From positions 276,219 through 340,218 of the forward strand of contig JALWWO010000020.1 of the NCBI GenBank assembly GCA_027078745.1: 64,000 bases of DNA, given 5' to 3'. This document shows positions 12,068 through 19,282 of this stretch, piece by piece. The DNA is from Chromatiaceae bacterium. GTDB lineage: Bacteria > Pseudomonadota > Gammaproteobacteria > Chromatiales > Chromatiaceae. Positions within the stretch are counted from its first letter, which is position 1. Each line of letters begins with the position of its first letter. A program made the position numbers and the translations under genes. A model generated the notes under the pieces. It had not been told where the DNA came from, searched no databases, and saw only the letters and a program-made list of their open reading frames with translations.

Positions 12068-13375
12068 ATGTCTCGCAGACAGTGGCAGCGCACGAAGCGA
12101 CAGTTTCGTTCTCCAACTGTGTGGTGGCTGCGCTTCCTGTTTTGGGGCAGTACCCTATTGGTTGGGTTGGTAGCGACGGGGCTCGCCCTCCTCAGCGATG
12201 CAGCTGGTTATTTCTTTCAAGAGCTCGTCTCGCAGCATCCCTGGCTGCCCTTTCTCCTCACGCCCCTGGGATTGTTGAGCATCGCTTGGCTGACGAGGCG
12301 TTATTTTCCCGCTGCGGAGGGCAGCGGCATTCCCCAAGCCATTGCCATTCTCGAAGTCAAGGATGAACAGCGGCGGCAAGAAGTCTTAGGATTGGGCACG
12401 GCTCTATTCAAGGGGGCGATGATCGTGCTGGGACTGGCCTGCGGCGCTTCCATCGGGCGTGAAGGGCCTACGGTGCACATCTCCGCTGCCATCACCTATT
12501 CCCTCTCGAAGCTCGGCCGCTTTCCCTACCATATCCGCACTAGAGGACTGGTGCTGGTGGGAGCAGCTGCCGGATTGTCCGCCGCCTTCAACACCCCTTT
12601 AGCGGGGATCGTGTTTGCCATCGAGGAGATGAGCCGCAGCTTCGAAACTCGCACCATTAACGTCATCTTTCTCGGCGTGGTGGTGGCGGGCATGACCGCT
12701 CTCGCCCTGCAGGGCAATTACAGCTATTTCGGCACGGTCGAGGCCAAACTAGAACCTTCCGCTAGCCTGGCTGCGATCTTCCTCTGCGGTTCGATGGGGG
12801 GGTTGCTGGGAGGGGGGTTCAGCAGGCTGTTGCTCTATGGCGGCGCACGCCTGGGAAAGCTGCGCCGCGCAAGGCCCTATGGTTTCGCCCTCGCTTGTGG
12901 GCTGCTGTTGGCAGGGATCGGCTACATCTCTCATGGGGCGACCTATGGCACCGGCTACGAACAGGCGGTCCAGGTGTTGGAGGGTACAGCAGGGGAAGCG
13001 CCCTTTTATCCCTTGCTCAAGCTCGTGGCCACGGTGATTTCCTACCTCAGCGGCATTCCGGGCGGCATCTTTGCCCCTTCCCTTTCCATCGGCGCTTCCC
13101 TAGGTGCAGAGCTCGCACCGCTCGTGCCTTCCGCCCCCGTGGCTGCGATGGCTCTCTTGGGCATGGGCGCTTATTTTGCCGGTGTGGTTCAATCCCCCAT
13201 CACCGCTGTGGTCATCGTGATGGAAATGACAAATGAACAGGACCTGCTGCTTCCCTTGATGGCCACAGCCCTGCTCGCTCAGGGGGTTTCCAAGCATATC
13301 TCCCCCAAAGCGCTCTACATGGCGTTGGCGGAAGAATTCCTCCGCCAGTGGAAGGGCGCGGCGCAGCCTACTTGA
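12068..13375 (+). CDS. clcA: ClC-type chloride/proton antiporter
   Basis: A 435-residue ClC family channel or exchanger. The chloride-binding motifs are all present: GSGIPQ, GREGPTVH with the external gating Glu, GIPGGIFAPS, and a conserved Tyr in KALYMAL that matches E. coli Tyr445. The pair IEEM matches the E202/E203 region of E. coli ClcA, where E203 is the internal proton gate. This supports a Cl-/H+ exchanger rather than a channel. No C-terminal CBS domains are attached. The last 8 bp overlap the convergent exported-protein gene. Confidence 0.9.
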   Translation: MSRRQWQRTKRQFRSPTVWWLRFLFWGSTLLVGLVATGLALLSDAAGYFFQELVSQHPWLPFLLTPLGLLSIAWLTRRYFPAAEGSGIPQAIAILEVKDEQRRQEVLGLGTALFKGAMIVLGLACGASIGREGPTVHISAAITYSLSKLGRFPYHIRTRGLVLVGAAAGLSAAFNTPLAGIVFAIEEMSRSFETRTINVIFLGVVVAGMTALALQGNYSYFGTVEAKLEPSASLAAIFLCGSMGGLLGGGFSRLLLYGGARLGKLRRARPYGFALACGLLLAGIGYISHGATYGTGYEQAVQVLEGTAGEAPFYPLLKLVATVISYLSGIPGGIFAPSLSIGASLGAELAPLVPSAPVAAMALLGMGAYFAGVVQSPITAVVIVMEMTNEQDLLLPLMATALLAQGVSKHISPKALYMALAEEFLRQWKGAAQPT

Positions 13376-13796
13376 TGGGCTCAGGTTCTGCGATCACAGG
13401 CACGATCGTGCCGTTGAACATGACGGCCACATAGCGCGCTTTGATTCGTTCCCCTTCCCGTTTCCGCAGCTGGAACAAAAAATACCAGCGATCTTCCTGC
13501 TCGTGCTCATGGATGGGCTTGAGTTCGATTTCATGCACCTGCGCACCCTGATAGCGGGGGTCCTTGGTCATCCAAGCGTTGAGAAGCCTGATAGCCTCGG
13601 CGATGGTCATGGGCGGTTGGGCCTGCTCGGCAGGTCGCCAAGCTGGACTGGCAGCGATGTCCGCATCCCTGAGAAAGAGCACCAATCGTTGGCCGTCCAT
13701 GGCATCGATGATCTCATGGGGCCAAAGATTTATGTCGGTTCTAGCCGAAGCATTGATACAGAGCAGGCCGCTGAGGAGGAGGGAAAGTTTGCGCAT
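13368..13796 (-). CDS. small exported protein, unknown
   Basis: A 142-residue protein whose start is set at the ATG before KLSLLLSGLLCINASA, a clear signal peptide cleaved near residue 18-20. A longer reading frame exists upstream but would bury the signal sequence. The mature part is mixed alpha/beta with no Cys or catalytic pattern that I recognise. It lies 23 bp downstream of the SulP transporter stop on the same strand, so it may be co-transcribed and act in the periplasm with that transporter. Its 3' end overlaps clcA by 8 bp. Confidence 0.6.
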   Translation of the reverse strand: MRKLSLLLSGLLCINASARTDINLWPHEIIDAMDGQRLVLFLRDADIAASPAWRPAEQAQPPMTIAEAIRLLNAWMTKDPRYQGAQVHEIELKPIHEHEQEDRWYFLFQLRKREGERIKARYVAVMFNGTIVPVIAEPEPIK

Positions 13797-13819
13797 TTTG
13801 ACCTCTGAGAAAATGGGGA

Positions 13820-15613
13820 TTAAGGCTTGGATTGTTCCGGTAGGCCGAATTCTTCTTGGCATTCCAAGAAGATGCGCTGCTGGCAGCGGGCGCAGCGCGC
13901 CTTGTCCAGTTTCTGATAGACCGCATGAATGGCTGCAGTCTTCCCCTGGAACACATGTTCCGGCCCGATCTCATCCAGACAGCCGCAGCGATCCAGGGTA
14001 TCCCAAAGCCCCTGCTTCACATTGATGAGATAGAGATCGCCCCCCGCTGCCTTGCGCCGCTTTGCCTCTTCTACCAGGGCTTCCCCGCCCTGCAAATCCA
14101 CGAAGTTGATTCCCTGACAGGCGATGGCCAGGTGCTTCTGCTCCGGCTGTTCCGCTCGGATGCGGTCAAAGGCCTCCTGCACATGGTTCACCGAACCGAA
14201 GAAGAGGGAACCATCGATGCGGATGATCTTGAATTGGGGACATTCGGGAAGGTCGGGATTGGTCACCAAGGGACGTTTGGGAAGGGAAGGATCGGGCACC
14301 CGAGATCGGATCGCCGGTTTGGAAACCCGGTCCAGATAGAGCACTAGGGAGAGCAACACGCCGGCGAAGATGGCGAATTCCAGTTCTAGGAACAGGGCGC
14401 TCAGCAGAGTGACCAGCAATACGCTGGTTTCTCGTCGGGAAGCTTGGAAGATATGGGCGATCTGTCCGAAATCGATGAGCCCCCAAGCCACTATGAACAG
14501 CACGCCCGCCATGGCTGCCTTCGGCAGATAGGCGGCTAAGGGAGCGATCAGCACCACGATGAAAATGAGCAGCAGGCCAGCGAACATGGCGGCCAGGGGG
14601 GTGCGGGCGCCTGCTTCATAGTTGAGTCCAGACCGGTTGAAGGAGCCCGTGGCCACATAGCCAGAGAAGAAGCTGCCCGCAATGTTGGATAGACCTTGGC
14701 CGATGAATTCCTGATTGCCGTCGATGCGATAGCCCCCTCGGGCCGCGAGGGAACGACCGATGGAAACTGCCTCCGTGAGGGCGAACAGAGTAACCGCTAG
14801 GGCGGTAGGGGCCAATGCCTTGATGTGGTCGAGGTTAAAGTCAGGATGGGACAGAGGGGGCAAACCGGCGGGCAGCGCACCCACTTGGGCAATATGGGTG
14901 ACCGTCTCCCCGAACAGGAGATTGAGCCCATAGGCTACCAAACCGCCGAAGATCATGCAGAGGATGAGATAGGGCAGTTTGGGAAACCAGCGTTTGATGG
15001 CGATGCCGCTCAGCAAAGTCGCCAGTGCGACGATGGTTGCGAAGGGGTTGATGTCCAGGATATGGCTGCCGAAATTTAACAAAATATCGTGGAGATGACC
15101 GCTGGAATCGATCTCCACGCCGAAGAAATGCTTGAGCTGTTTTGCGGCGATGAGTACAGCAGCACCGGCGGTAAAACCGACAATCACCGAATGAGAGATA
15201 AAGTTGACCAAGGCGCCCAAGCGGGCCAGGCCCAGAGCCAGTTCTAACAAACCCACCATGAGGGTCAGGGTGAGGGCCAGCCCCACATATTCTTGGGAGC
15301 CTGGTGTGGCCAGCAAGGAAAGGGCGGAGAAGAGGACGATGGAAGCGGCGGTGGTAGGGCCGGAGACCAGGTGACGCGAGGAACCGAACAGGGCAGCGAC
15401 CATAGCAGGGATCATGCCCGCATAGAGCCCGTATTCCGGCGGCATGCCGGCGATGGTGGCGAACGCAACCCCCTGGGGAAGTACCACGATGGCCCCCGCC
15501 AAGCCCGCCATGAAATCCACCTTGATATCTTCCTTGGTTACCTGGGGCAACCACCGCAAGAAGGGAACGAACTGAGAGACCCAAGGGGAATCGAGCAGTT
15601 TTGCGGTATTCAC
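13820..15613 (-). CDS. SulP family anion transporter with STAS domain
   Basis: A 597-residue transporter. The N-terminal membrane part (about 30-430) carries SulP signatures such as LPQGVAFATIAGMPPEYGLYA and ATGSFNRSGLNYEAGARTP. A STAS domain follows at about 455-560. The family moves sulfate, bicarbonate, chloride or other anions; the substrate cannot be fixed here. After the STAS domain there is a short Cys-containing tail, CARCQQRIFLEC (C-x2-C-x7-C), preceded by DRCGC. The start codon is GTG. Together with clcA and the RDD gene it makes an anion-transport neighbourhood, although it is convergent with clcA. Confidence 0.87.
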   Translation of the reverse strand: MNTAKLLDSPWVSQFVPFLRWLPQVTKEDIKVDFMAGLAGAIVVLPQGVAFATIAGMPPEYGLYAGMIPAMVAALFGSSRHLVSGPTTAASIVLFSALSLLATPGSQEYVGLALTLTLMVGLLELALGLARLGALVNFISHSVIVGFTAGAAVLIAAKQLKHFFGVEIDSSGHLHDILLNFGSHILDINPFATIVALATLLSGIAIKRWFPKLPYLILCMIFGGLVAYGLNLLFGETVTHIAQVGALPAGLPPLSHPDFNLDHIKALAPTALAVTLFALTEAVSIGRSLAARGGYRIDGNQEFIGQGLSNIAGSFFSGYVATGSFNRSGLNYEAGARTPLAAMFAGLLLIFIVVLIAPLAAYLPKAAMAGVLFIVAWGLIDFGQIAHIFQASRRETSVLLVTLLSALFLELEFAIFAGVLLSLVLYLDRVSKPAIRSRVPDPSLPKRPLVTNPDLPECPQFKIIRIDGSLFFGSVNHVQEAFDRIRAEQPEQKHLAIACQGINFVDLQGGEALVEEAKRRKAAGGDLYLINVKQGLWDTLDRCGCLDEIGPEHVFQGKTAAIHAVYQKLDKARCARCQQRIFLECQEEFGLPEQSKP

Positions 15614-15720: not shown

Positions 15721-16968
15721 TTAAAGGAAGATGCCGGCGACTGCGCCGGTCATGAGGGTGGCTAAGGTACCCGCCAGTATGGACTTCATGCCCAGAGCCA
15801 TGATCTCTTCCCGGCGTTCGGGCACCATGCACCCTAGACCGCCGGTGAGGATGGCTAGGCTTCCAAAATTTGCAAATCCGCAGAGGGCATAGAGCAGAAT
15901 CAGGCGGCTGCGTTCGCTGAGGGCTTCTGGGGGCAGAGCAGCGAGCTCCAAGTAGGCGATCAGCTCGTTAAGCACGGTTTTAATACCCATGAGACTGCCG
16001 GCGGTCTGCGCCTCTTCCCAAGGAATGCCGATGAGCCAAACCACAGGTGCCATCACCCAGCCCAACAGGCGCTGAAGCGTCAGGGCTTCCCCTCCAATCT
16101 GAGGCAAAAAGCTGAGGAGGCTGTTTACCAGGCTCACCAGGGCGATGAACACGATGAGCAGGGCGATGATATGGAGAAACAAGGGGATGGCTTCCAAGGT
16201 GCCTCGGGTCAGAGCCTCCATGGCGGTCTGATCCTGTTGGGGGAGAGCAAAAGGATTTTCTTCTCCGAGGGTTCTTTCTGTTTCCGGCACTAGAATGCCT
16301 GAGATCAAGAGGGCAGCGGGTGCAGAAATCAGGGAAGCGCTGAGAACCTGGCCCAAAGCGCCCGGAACGCTGTCTTCTAGAATGCTCGCATAGAGCACCA
16401 TCACGGTGCCGGCAACCGTGGCCATACCGCAGGTCATGAGGGCAAACAGCTCGCTTCGGGAGAGGTGGCGAAGATAGGGACGGATCAACAAGGGGGATTC
16501 CACCATACCCACGAAGATATTCGCGGCTGCTGCGAAGCCTAAAGCCCCACCGATGCCTAGGGTTCTACGCAGCATCCAGGCAAACCCCTGGATCAGCAGG
16601 GGCAGGACGCGCCAATAGAACAGCAAGGCGGATAGGGCACTTACCACCAGCAACAGGGGCAGAGCTTGGAAGGCGAGGATAAAGCGGTGTTGGGGATAGG
16701 GGATTTCAAAAGGGGCGGTGCCGCCGCCGAGATAGCCGAAGACAAAGGCAGTGCCCGTTTGCGTGGCCTCCTGCAGGCTCACCACCGCTTGATTCAGCCC
16801 TAGGAAGAACGCCTGCGCGCTGGGAAAACCCAACAGCAATCCTGCAAACAGAAATTGTAACCCGAGACCGGAAAGCACCAGCCGAGGGGAAATGGCTTGA
16901 CGCTGTTCGCTGAGGGCCCACGCCAGAACGAGCAATGCCGCGATGCCCACAAACCCTTGAACATGCAT
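15721..16968 (-). CDS. concentrative nucleoside transporter (NupC/CNT family)
   Basis: A 415-residue membrane protein of the CNT family, which moves nucleosides with Na+ or H+. Recognisable blocks are the N-terminal G-x-ALLVLAWALSEQR segment, QTGTAFVFGYLGGG, the VGMVESPLLIRPYL motif and MATVAGTVMVLYAS, followed by SLMGIKTVLNELIAYLEL. Its ATG overlaps the stop of the upstream SAM-hydrolysing gene by one base (TGATG), so the two are translationally coupled. That pairing suggests adenosine as the relevant substrate. Direction of transport in the cell is not shown by sequence. Confidence 0.88.
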   Translation of the reverse strand: MHVQGFVGIAALLVLAWALSEQRQAISPRLVLSGLGLQFLFAGLLLGFPSAQAFFLGLNQAVVSLQEATQTGTAFVFGYLGGGTAPFEIPYPQHRFILAFQALPLLLVVSALSALLFYWRVLPLLIQGFAWMLRRTLGIGGALGFAAAANIFVGMVESPLLIRPYLRHLSRSELFALMTCGMATVAGTVMVLYASILEDSVPGALGQVLSASLISAPAALLISGILVPETERTLGEENPFALPQQDQTAMEALTRGTLEAIPLFLHIIALLIVFIALVSLVNSLLSFLPQIGGEALTLQRLLGWVMAPVVWLIGIPWEEAQTAGSLMGIKTVLNELIAYLELAALPPEALSERSRLILLYALCGFANFGSLAILTGGLGCMVPERREEIMALGMKSILAGTLATLMTGAVAGIFL

Positions 16969-17702
16969 CAGCCTGAGAGGGAAAAGACATCGCCCGTGCG
17001 AACGCCCAACACCTGATCCGCTCGGCCCTGATTGACGGCCAGTTCCACGAGGCCAAATGAATTCTTATACCAGAAACCCTGTCCCACGGGAACTTCGCAG
17101 AAGGTTCGCGCGAAGCGCAGCTGATGGGCTTTGATTTGGATCTGGATTGCGGAATCGAGCTGGCTCGCCCGCAGTCCGGTCATCAAATTGCCATAGCGAT
17201 CGCTATAAATAATTCTCTGGCAGTCTTCCGGCCAGTCCGCGCCCACGATCTGAGACCGATCGATTTCCGCAGTTTCCAAGGCCTCCCCCAGCAAGAGCTT
17301 TGCCGCGATGGGTGCAAAGAGATCTCGACCGTGAAAACTGGCGGAAAGCCGCGCCGGACGCCAATGTACGACGTGCAGCCGAGCATCGGGGAATGCCCTT
17401 GCGACCAAGGTGAGCAAGCCATTGTCCGGGCCGATGAAAGTGCCCTTCTCTGTCTGCAAGATCAGCGCTTGCCGATCCCCACCCACGCCGGGATCGACCA
17501 CGCAGAGATAGAGGGTATCCGAAGGCAAATCTCGGATCAGGGCAGGCAATAGATAGGCGGCGAATTCCGGATGGAAGGGGGGTAAATCTGAGATCAGATC
17601 GATGACGGGTATTGCAGGCACTAGGTTATGAAGCACTGCCCTCAGCTGCCCCACATAGGGTCCCGTACCCCCGAAATCGGTTACCAGCGCAATGCGTTTC
17701 AT
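16968..17702 (-). CDS. SAM hydrolase / S-adenosyl-L-methionine hydroxide adenosyltransferase (DUF62)
   Basis: A 244-residue member of the DUF62 family, related to fluorinase and chlorinase but in most bacteria splitting SAM to adenosine and methionine with hydroxide. Family landmarks are LVTDFGGTGPYVG at the N-terminus, D70 and R77 in VVDPGVGGDRQAL, and H124 in FHGRD. These match the reported Asp-Arg-His catalytic set. The C-terminal domain holds YSDRYGNLMTG and the GxFWYKNSFGLVELA substrate-pocket block. The C-terminal stop is fused to the start of a nucleoside carrier gene, which fits adenosine as product. Confidence 0.88.
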   Translation of the reverse strand: MKRIALVTDFGGTGPYVGQLRAVLHNLVPAIPVIDLISDLPPFHPEFAAYLLPALIRDLPSDTLYLCVVDPGVGGDRQALILQTEKGTFIGPDNGLLTLVARAFPDARLHVVHWRPARLSASFHGRDLFAPIAAKLLLGEALETAEIDRSQIVGADWPEDCQRIIYSDRYGNLMTGLRASQLDSAIQIQIKAHQLRFARTFCEVPVGQGFWYKNSFGLVELAVNQGRADQVLGVRTGDVFSLSG

Positions 17703-17749
17703 AGCAGCTGATTTGCTGGACTACCCGTATTGCAAGGTCGGTCCCCCGA

Positions 17750-17781
17750 AAAAGAAAAAACCGGATACATGAATCCGGTTT
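17750..17781 (-). terminator. rho-independent terminator after rplQ
   Basis: A perfect 9-bp stem (AAACCGGAT/ATCCGGTTT, 6-nt loop) is followed on the minus strand by a T-rich tract (TTTTTTCTTTTTC). It lies 23 bp beyond the rplQ stop and closes the ribosomal block before the DUF62 gene. Confidence 0.88.
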
Positions 17782-17803
17782 CTCCTGGGACCGTGGCAGA
17801 AGC

Positions 17804-18211
17804 TTATTCTTCCGCCTCTTCCGAAGGGGACATCGGCCGGTCCACGAGTTCCACATAGGCCATGGGGGCTGCATCGCCCGCGCGATATCCACACTTGAGG
17901 ATGCGCAGATAACCGCCTCCTCCCTTGGGATATTTACGGTCCCGTTCTCGATACCGAGGACCCAGTTCAGAAAACAGTTTTCCGACCACTTCCTTATCTC
18001 GGAGGCGTGCAAAGGCGAGACGGCGTGCGTGCACAGAGTCCTGCTTAGCTAGGGTGATGAGGGGCTCCGCCACTCGGCGCAGCTCTTTGGCCTTCGGCAG
18101 CGTGGTTTTGATCAACTCATGGCGAAATAACGCGTTGGTCATGTTCTGAAACATGGCCTTGCGATGGGCGCTCGTCCGATTGAGATGTCTTCCTGATTTA
18201 CGATGACGCAT
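17804..18211 (-). CDS. rplQ: 50S ribosomal protein L17
   Basis: A 135-residue L17 with the hallmark N-terminus [20 protein letters not shown] and the C-terminal [16 protein letters not shown] block. It is the last gene of the alpha cluster, 36 bp after rpoA, and is followed by a clear intrinsic terminator. L17 sits near the peptide exit tunnel of the large subunit. Confidence 0.97.
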
Positions 18212-18247: not shown

Positions 18248-19261
18248 CTACGATTTGACAGTCAGTTCCTCGATGTTATCCGGTGGCCAGTTCTCCAGGC
18301 GCATTCCCAAGGATAAGCCGCGGGTTGCGAGCACGTCCTTGATCTCCGTAAGGGATTTCTTTCCGAGGTTCGGTGTTTTCAATAGCTCCACTTCCGTGCG
18401 CTGGATGAGGTCCCCGATGAGGTAAATATTTTCCGCCTTCAAGCAGTTCGCTGCCCGTACAGTGAGATCCAGATCGTCCACAGGGCGCAGTAAGAGGGGA
18501 TCGAATCCTTGATCCTTGGGCGGTTGGGTGGCGGTTTTCGATTCCTCTTGTTCCGTTCCTTCCAGCACCACAAAGCTGCTCAGTTGATCGCGAAGAATAG
18601 TGGCTGCCTGCTCAACGGCGCTTCTGGGATCCACGGTGCCGTTGGTTTCCAAATCAATGATAAGGCGATCTAAATCCGTCTGTTGAGCCACGCGGGCTGA
18701 TTGCACGTCGATAGCTACGCGGCGAATTGGACTATAGGAAGCATCGACCAACAGCTTTCCGATGGATCGCTCCGCCTCTAACTGCCGTTGCGTCACCGGC
18801 TCATATCCTCGTCCTCGACGCACGGTGATCGTCATAGAGAGCTTGGCTTTTCCCGTGATATGAGCGATGACTAGATCAGGGTTGGCGATTTCTGCGCTGT
18901 GATCGATAGCGATATCGGCAGCGGTCACTTCCCCTGGGCCCGTTTTGGTCAGGGCGAAGGTAGCTTCGTCCTTTCCATGTAGGCGGATGGCCAGCTCCTT
19001 AAGATTTAGCAGAATCTCTAACACATCCTCACGCACCCCTTCCAGGGTTGTGAACTCGTGCAAAACGCCCTGGATCTCCACCTCGGTGACCGCACAGCCG
19101 GAGATAGAAGAGAGCAAGATGCGGCGCAAGGCATTTCCCAAGGTGTGTCCGAAACCACGTTCCAGGGGTTCCAGAGAGATGCGCGCACGATTGCGGCTTC
19201 CACCGACAGACTCGACCTTGACAATTCGCGGCTTCAGGAAACCGCTAACAACATCGGCCAT
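18248..19261 (-). CDS. rpoA: RNA polymerase alpha subunit
   Basis: A 337-residue alpha subunit. The N-terminal assembly domain has [20 protein letters not shown] and the C-terminal domain has [17 protein letters not shown], with the Arg that contacts UP elements. I chose the second of two nearby ATGs. It places the GGAGG site 9 nt upstream and gives [12 protein letters not shown], matching the spacing before FLKPR in E. coli. The first ATG (9 nt upstream) abuts the ribosome-binding site. An acidic linker with a short insertion makes it slightly longer than E. coli (329 aa). Confidence 0.96.
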
Positions 19262-19282
19262 GCCAGGCATCCTCCCCTCAAA

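Follow-up and report, generated by a model that had tools for sequence, protein, structure and literature searches.

Does a SAM hydrolase gene that runs directly into a nucleoside transporter gene mark a dedicated unit for controlling SAM and recovering adenosine, as an earlier note on this DNA suggested, or did two genes of separate standing come to lie side by side? The question is raised by a stretch of 64,000 nucleotides from a Chromatiaceae contig (hereafter, the window), in which rpoA, rplQ, a DUF62 gene and a CNT gene follow one another in that order on the minus strand. The two ribosomal-block reading frames were named from their sequence and we take them to be rpoA and rplQ.

18248..19270, minus strand: rpoA (RNA polymerase alpha), upstream of rplQ
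17804..18211, minus strand: rplQ (ribosomal protein L17), the recurring upstream neighbour of DUF62
17749..17785, minus strand: intrinsic terminator in the rplQ–DUF62 gap, a hairpin (17754..17785) with a T-run
16968..17702, minus strand: DUF62 (SAM_HAT) protein of 244 amino acids, a predicted adenosine-forming SAM hydrolase (open reading frame and Pfam)
16966..16970, minus strand: TGATG junction, one A common to the DUF62 stop (TGA) and the CNT start (ATG)
15721..16968, minus strand: CNT (NupC-like) nucleoside transporter of 415 amino acids (open reading frame and Pfam)

The TGATG junction described in the earlier note was confirmed, with one base common to the two genes and a full-length CNT. 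The overlap alone is weak evidence, because overlaps of one or four bases occur in two of the 40 same-strand neighbour pairs that a greedy caller of open reading frames gave for the window, DUF62–CNT being one of them. No clear Shine-Dalgarno sequence was seen by eye before the ATG of either DUF62 or CNT. The two genes are probably carried on one transcript, with translation coupled through the stop/start overlap. Elsewhere on the minus strand, an open reading frame of 164 amino acids (13368..13862) overlaps the end of a SulP/STAS transporter gene by 43 nt and matches no Pfam or NCBIfam family.

The DUF62 protein exceeded the Pfam cut-offs for both of its domains (SAM_HAT_N, 148 vs 26.3 bits; SAM_HAT_C, 77.7 vs 25.5 bits). 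In the alignment with the solved proteins PH0463 and MJ1651, its D70, R77 and H124 stand opposite their Asp, Arg and His, so the claim of a DUF62 enzyme with the catalytic set intact holds. These two SAM hydroxide adenosyltransferases, which share with the window enzyme the SAM_HAT domains, the Asp-Arg-His set and a similar length, are together with 2zbu and 2cw5 its closest solved structures (E 5e-32 to 2e-23); for the CNT family, too, solved structures gave clear alignments. The SalL chlorinase (2q6i, E 3e-17) and the fluorinase (1rqp, E 2e-5) belong to the same superfamily and matched more weakly. According to a passage in a review, the His-Arg-Asp triad activates water and the halogenases are without it (PMC10491745), whereas the window enzyme has the triad, and a SAM-dependent halogenase was ruled out on this ground.

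A simple triad motif was found in 79 of 80 named DUF62 relatives (the best 80 of at least 585 confirmed), a count to be read with the fact that these loci were partly chosen by a pattern containing the His motif. The window enzyme differs from known DUF62 proteins in being followed by a CNT gene and in falling below the cut-offs of the NCBIfam (R)-SAM hydrolase equivalogs (NF058624, 166.7 vs 350 bits; NF053629, 102.1 vs 470 bits). Its family and triad support the release of adenosine and methionine from SAM that the earlier note had given as the family chemistry: the Asp-Arg-His set would most likely activate a water molecule that attacks C5' of SAM. Two side observations concern the family searches. 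Chain A of PDB 7ccg is labelled 'DNA-directed RNA polymerase subunit delta', but over its length it resembles the SAM hydrolase/chlorinase family (E 4e-14), so that the label looks like a naming slip, and the Escherichia coli control genome gave a PF01887 match above the cut-off.

The transporter scored above each Pfam curated cut-off (Nucleos_tra2_N, 72.4; Gate, 52.9; Nucleos_tra2_C, 238.4 bits) and below that of the NupC subfamily TIGR00804 (351 vs 442 bits). The structures of vcCNT (3TIJ) and 5L26 matched it from end to end (E about 2e-77 to 2e-76), and when the CNT alignment was used as a profile, the search returned the same nine structures as the direct structure search. It is shorter than human CNT2, to judge from the match to human CNT3, in which the first 133 or so residues of the human chain are left unmatched. 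The vcCNT ligand residues Glu156, Glu332, Phe366, Asn368 and Ser371 correspond to E157, E335, F365, N367 and S370, so that the Glu, Phe, Asn and Ser ligands are common to vcCNT, 5L26 and the window CNT. The neighbouring positions differ: the HP1 motif reads G-M-V-E in the window CNT and G-Q-T-E in vcCNT and 5L26, with Met155 and Val156 where vcCNT has Gln154 and Thr155, and the later two selectivity positions read T-V rather than G-V. In the published account of vcCNT, Gln154 touches the base directly, and Thr155 and Glu156 do so via water (PMC4139061); a Gln at the position of Gln154 is also listed for hCNT3, hCNT1 and NupC (PMC5465479, Table 3).

At the four selectivity positions, mapped via the vcCNT alignment and published numbering rather than by direct alignment to hCNT2, the window CNT has G154, M155, T188 and V189 (window 16402..16509). 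These are the same four letters as the changes S319G/Q320M/S353T/L354V, which are reported to make hCNT1 hCNT2-like, S319G/Q320M alone making it broad (PMC7440666). Adenosine is therefore a plausible substrate, and the protein is most likely a cation-coupled importer of purine nucleosides, in line with the nucleoside carrier proposed earlier. A preference for purines is plausible here, though uncertain. The binding residues of vcCNT are described as those of the broadly selective hCNT3, and its affinity for adenosine is given as ~13-fold weaker than for uridine (470 vs 36 uM; PMC7440666, PMC4139061); given this weak adenosine binding, the human rule may not carry over to bacteria.

The same residues recur among bacterial CNTs. 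Read from tblastn columns, 51 CNT rows including that of the window gave 27 GMTV, 18 GMTM, one each of GQSV, GQGV, GQAV and GMST, and two uncovered; among the rows are pieces of a single gene and several from a single genome, and 29 are best matches of a phylum-wide search, more distant CNTs lying outside the 51. A bacterial subfamily with G/M/T/(V or M) thus accounts for 45 of the 51 rows (loci L031-L052 and L179-L207), some of them from one gene. Apart from the window's own locus, no DUF62 gene was found in the short flanks of the CNT loci read for these motifs. Three genomes have the CNT gene split over two frames, by an internal stop or over two contigs (L044/L050 in G028, L046/L051 in G013, L045/L049 in G004), which suggests decay or assembly errors in some relatives.

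If the two genes form a conserved module, they should be found together elsewhere, and the survey of DUF62 neighbourhoods for adjacent CNT genes that the earlier note had proposed was run at several depths. The window's own genome (2.18 Mb, 24 contigs) and 54 relatives made up a first set of 55, with DUF62 in 36 and CNT in 18; the CNT genes of the relatives are located elsewhere, away from DUF62. At three of these CNT loci the neighbours are unrelated to one another: among six nearby proteins were FabA, a solute-binding protein, a cation efflux protein and a fusion of an aldolase with a short-chain dehydrogenase. An order-level sample of 195 genomes, again including the window's, was searched with PF01887 for DUF62 (158 genomes) and PF07662 for CNT (85 genomes), and 75 had both; four DUF62 places in CNT-bearing genomes of this sample were located by a separate look-up. 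The two genes were adjacent in the window's genome only. None of the other 74 had them adjacent: in 15 they shared a contig, the nearest pair 105 kb apart, and in 59 they were on different contigs. Co-occurrence was weakly positive (CNT in 75/158 genomes with DUF62 vs 10/37 without, p 0.03, kinship ignored).

A phylum-level sample of 397 genomes, including the window's, had DUF62 in 38, CNT in 163 and both in 15, a co-occurrence at chance level (15.6 expected, p 0.86). Adjacency was again confined to the window's genome; in the other 14, none had the genes adjacent, two having them about 228 and 356 kb apart on one contig and 12 on different contigs. Three CNT places in this sample were located by a separate look-up, and their positions were compared with DUF62 by eye. 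Likewise, no CNT gene was near any of the 80 named DUF62 loci (the best 80 of at least 585 confirmed), with flanks of up to 6 kb, some of them shortened by contig ends. The best-matching named loci, among the matches listed, come from Candidatus Thiosymbion, Thiocystis, Thiocapsa and others; we take these three to be Chromatiaceae and kin, which by itself would make that family the most likely origin of the window. In the open-licence PMC literature we found no paper joining SAM hydrolase, nucleoside transporter and operon, and among the papers listed, titles and abstract beginnings gave nothing on the pairing; for SAM epimer repair a single paper came up, and it was irrelevant.

These counts, with adjacency in 0/74 other order-level genomes, 0/14 other phylum-level genomes and 0/80 named loci (best 80 of at least 585), lead us to reject a conserved DUF62–CNT module. 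They also leave the suggested dedicated SAM and adenosine module unsupported, since the earlier note had itself named absence of the pairing in relatives as grounds for refuting it. Most of the comparison genomes are drafts in which the two genes fall on separate contigs, so that in any one of them the break may lie exactly between the genes. As no second genome of the window's genus occurs among the relatives or in the order sample, the absence applies to relatives beyond the genus, and the pairing may be private to it. With one genome of the genus compared, recent fixation of a useful pair and chance would look the same.

What recurs is the gene upstream. In 42 of the 80 named loci (best 80 of at least 585 confirmed), rplQ precedes DUF62 in the same orientation at a distance of less than 600 nt. 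The 38 loci of this set without the link comprise 27 alphaproteobacteria (by title and genus), two labelled only Proteobacteria and nine gammaproteobacteria, three of which have less than 1 kb of upstream sequence. Greedy gene calling on 30 DUF62 regions of relatives placed rplQ directly upstream in 16; it missed rplQ or DUF62 in some of these regions, and because it dropped real genes in this way we base the rplQ counts on the 80 named loci. A few of these regions, L081 and L087 of the window's own family among them, have DUF62 without rplQ upstream. A same-strand downstream gene was present in 39 of the 80 named loci (best 80 of at least 585), and the two largest clusters of recurring neighbours in this set have 10 and 8 members. 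Ten same-strand downstream neighbours assigned with Pfam were four DUF533, three isocitrate/isopropylmalate dehydrogenases, one DapB, one ERCC4-type nuclease and one without a match. The place of DUF62 behind rplQ thus recurs, whereas the genes that follow DUF62 vary and none of them is a constant partner. In the open-licence PMC literature we found no paper on DUF62 and rplQ together.

The terminator placed earlier between the ribosomal block and the pair is real, with a strong hairpin and a T-run after rplQ: folding of the 71 nt concerned gave -32.7 kcal/mol (z -4.3), a stability that none of 200 shuffles reached. A simple terminator scanner did not list it. Among the 42 rplQ-linked loci (from the best 80 of at least 585), a terminator-like hairpin was found in 37, compared with 4/42 single mononucleotide shuffles. 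The DUF62 start was called as early as possible in each locus; 29 of these 37 hairpins (among the 80 named loci L093-L172, best 80 of at least 585) end short of it and eight extend beyond it. The gap in the window (17702..17804) leaves 46 nt between T-run and DUF62 ATG, where a scan for sigma-70-like sites listed no promoter. For this reason the separate transcription of the pair asserted in the earlier note is possible, and read-through from the ribosomal block has an equal claim. The recurring order of rplQ, terminator and DUF62 suggests that DUF62 is expressed by attenuated read-through.

As to why SAM should be hydrolysed at all, the closest published guide is StDUF62, which we liken to the window enzyme from its description in the literature rather than by sequence alignment. 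StDUF62 is reported to favour the (R,S) epimer of SAM, in agreement with earlier work cited in the same paper, and to act on (S,S)-SAM once that epimer is exhausted (PMC12120602). This preference is the reason that removal of the epimer has been proposed as the role of such enzymes. The same paper reports strong inhibition by 150-300 mM salt; its authors regard SAM hydrolysis as energetically inefficient, doubt that it is the true role, and propose another, unknown role for at least some DUF62 enzymes (PMC12120602). The earlier note called the reason for hydrolysis unresolved; a purpose had already been put forward, though one group doubts it. By analogy with this distant family member, the window enzyme probably acts for the most part on the (R,S) epimer, which forms spontaneously; we infer this preference only, since the enzyme falls below the (R)-SAM hydrolase cut-offs.

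One way to read the pair is as a salvage unit: SAM, or its damaged epimer, would be cleared by the enzyme, leaked adenosine would be taken back up by the CNT, and translational coupling would hold the two proteins in a fixed ratio. The one-base stop/start overlap, the purine-type G/M/T/V residues and the weak order-level co-occurrence (p 0.03) fit such a unit. So does the wider genome, where four PfkB-family hits were obtained and the three scanned (the fourth is weak) included no adenosine kinase, so that, as regards this one route of adenosine use, adenosine might leak. However, the adjacency was seen in no other genome checked. A CNT brings nucleosides in, but the adenosine that the enzyme releases is already within the cell, and CNTs whose short flanks show no DUF62 have these selectivity residues too. 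Nor would DUF62 be the sole internal source of adenosine, since the genome encodes adenosylhomocysteinase (AhcY; TIGR00936, 650.8 vs cut-off 497.6 bits). It also encodes an S-methyl-5'-thioinosine phosphorylase rather than an MTA phosphorylase (NF006599, 326.2 vs 223 bits; G000:C6:103402-104124, L174), implying a deamination step in MTA recycling. We regard a dedicated salvage unit as improbable.

The upstream context points to a different unit, rpoA-rplQ-terminator-DUF62, in which attenuated read-through would couple repair of the SAM epimer to growth and the downstream gene, here CNT, would ride along. The rplQ link in 42 of the 80 named loci and the hairpins in 37 of those 42 against 4/42 shuffles (best 80 of at least 585) speak for this, as does the short gap in the window, where no promoter was listed. 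Against it, ten of the 42 linked loci (from the best 80 of at least 585) have 118 to 492 nt after rplQ, room enough for a promoter, and the link is absent from 38 of the 80 (best 80 of at least 585) and from some genomes of the same family; moreover, unrelated genes are often found linked behind conserved blocks. We regard this as a tentative possibility. A version in which the purine importer has in addition been bolted on in a coupled ratio, retaining freed or scavenged adenosine, seems to us improbable. It is also rather unlikely that the enzyme does something other than hydrolyse SAM in the living cell, in a role of the kind proposed for at least some DUF62 proteins. The salt inhibition and energetic cost described for StDUF62 (PMC12120602) and the missed (R)-SAM hydrolase cut-offs would agree with another role, but the triad is kept in the window enzyme and its motif in 79/80 relatives (best 80 of at least 585, partly picked by the His motif).

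The pair looks like a local rearrangement because its adjacency is absent in the relatives examined, and we consider it likely that a housekeeping DUF62 hydrolase and a purine-type CNT importer were adjoined in one lineage and do not form a conserved functional unit. On this view the hydrolase gene, commonly just behind the rpoA-rplQ block in the family, would have gained the transporter gene as its neighbour through a rearrangement. Any metabolic link between the two would then be the shared adenosine pool.

The purpose of SAM hydrolysis in cells is still disputed in the literature, as the passages cited from PMC12120602 illustrate, and this locus gives no answer through the transporter link because just one genome showed it. 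The context signal for DUF62 is instead its position after rplQ and its terminator, which recurs in many loci from gammaproteobacteria. For the transporters, the G/M/T/(V or M) residues lead to the prediction that this bacterial CNT subfamily would be purine-selective through the same residues as human CNT2.
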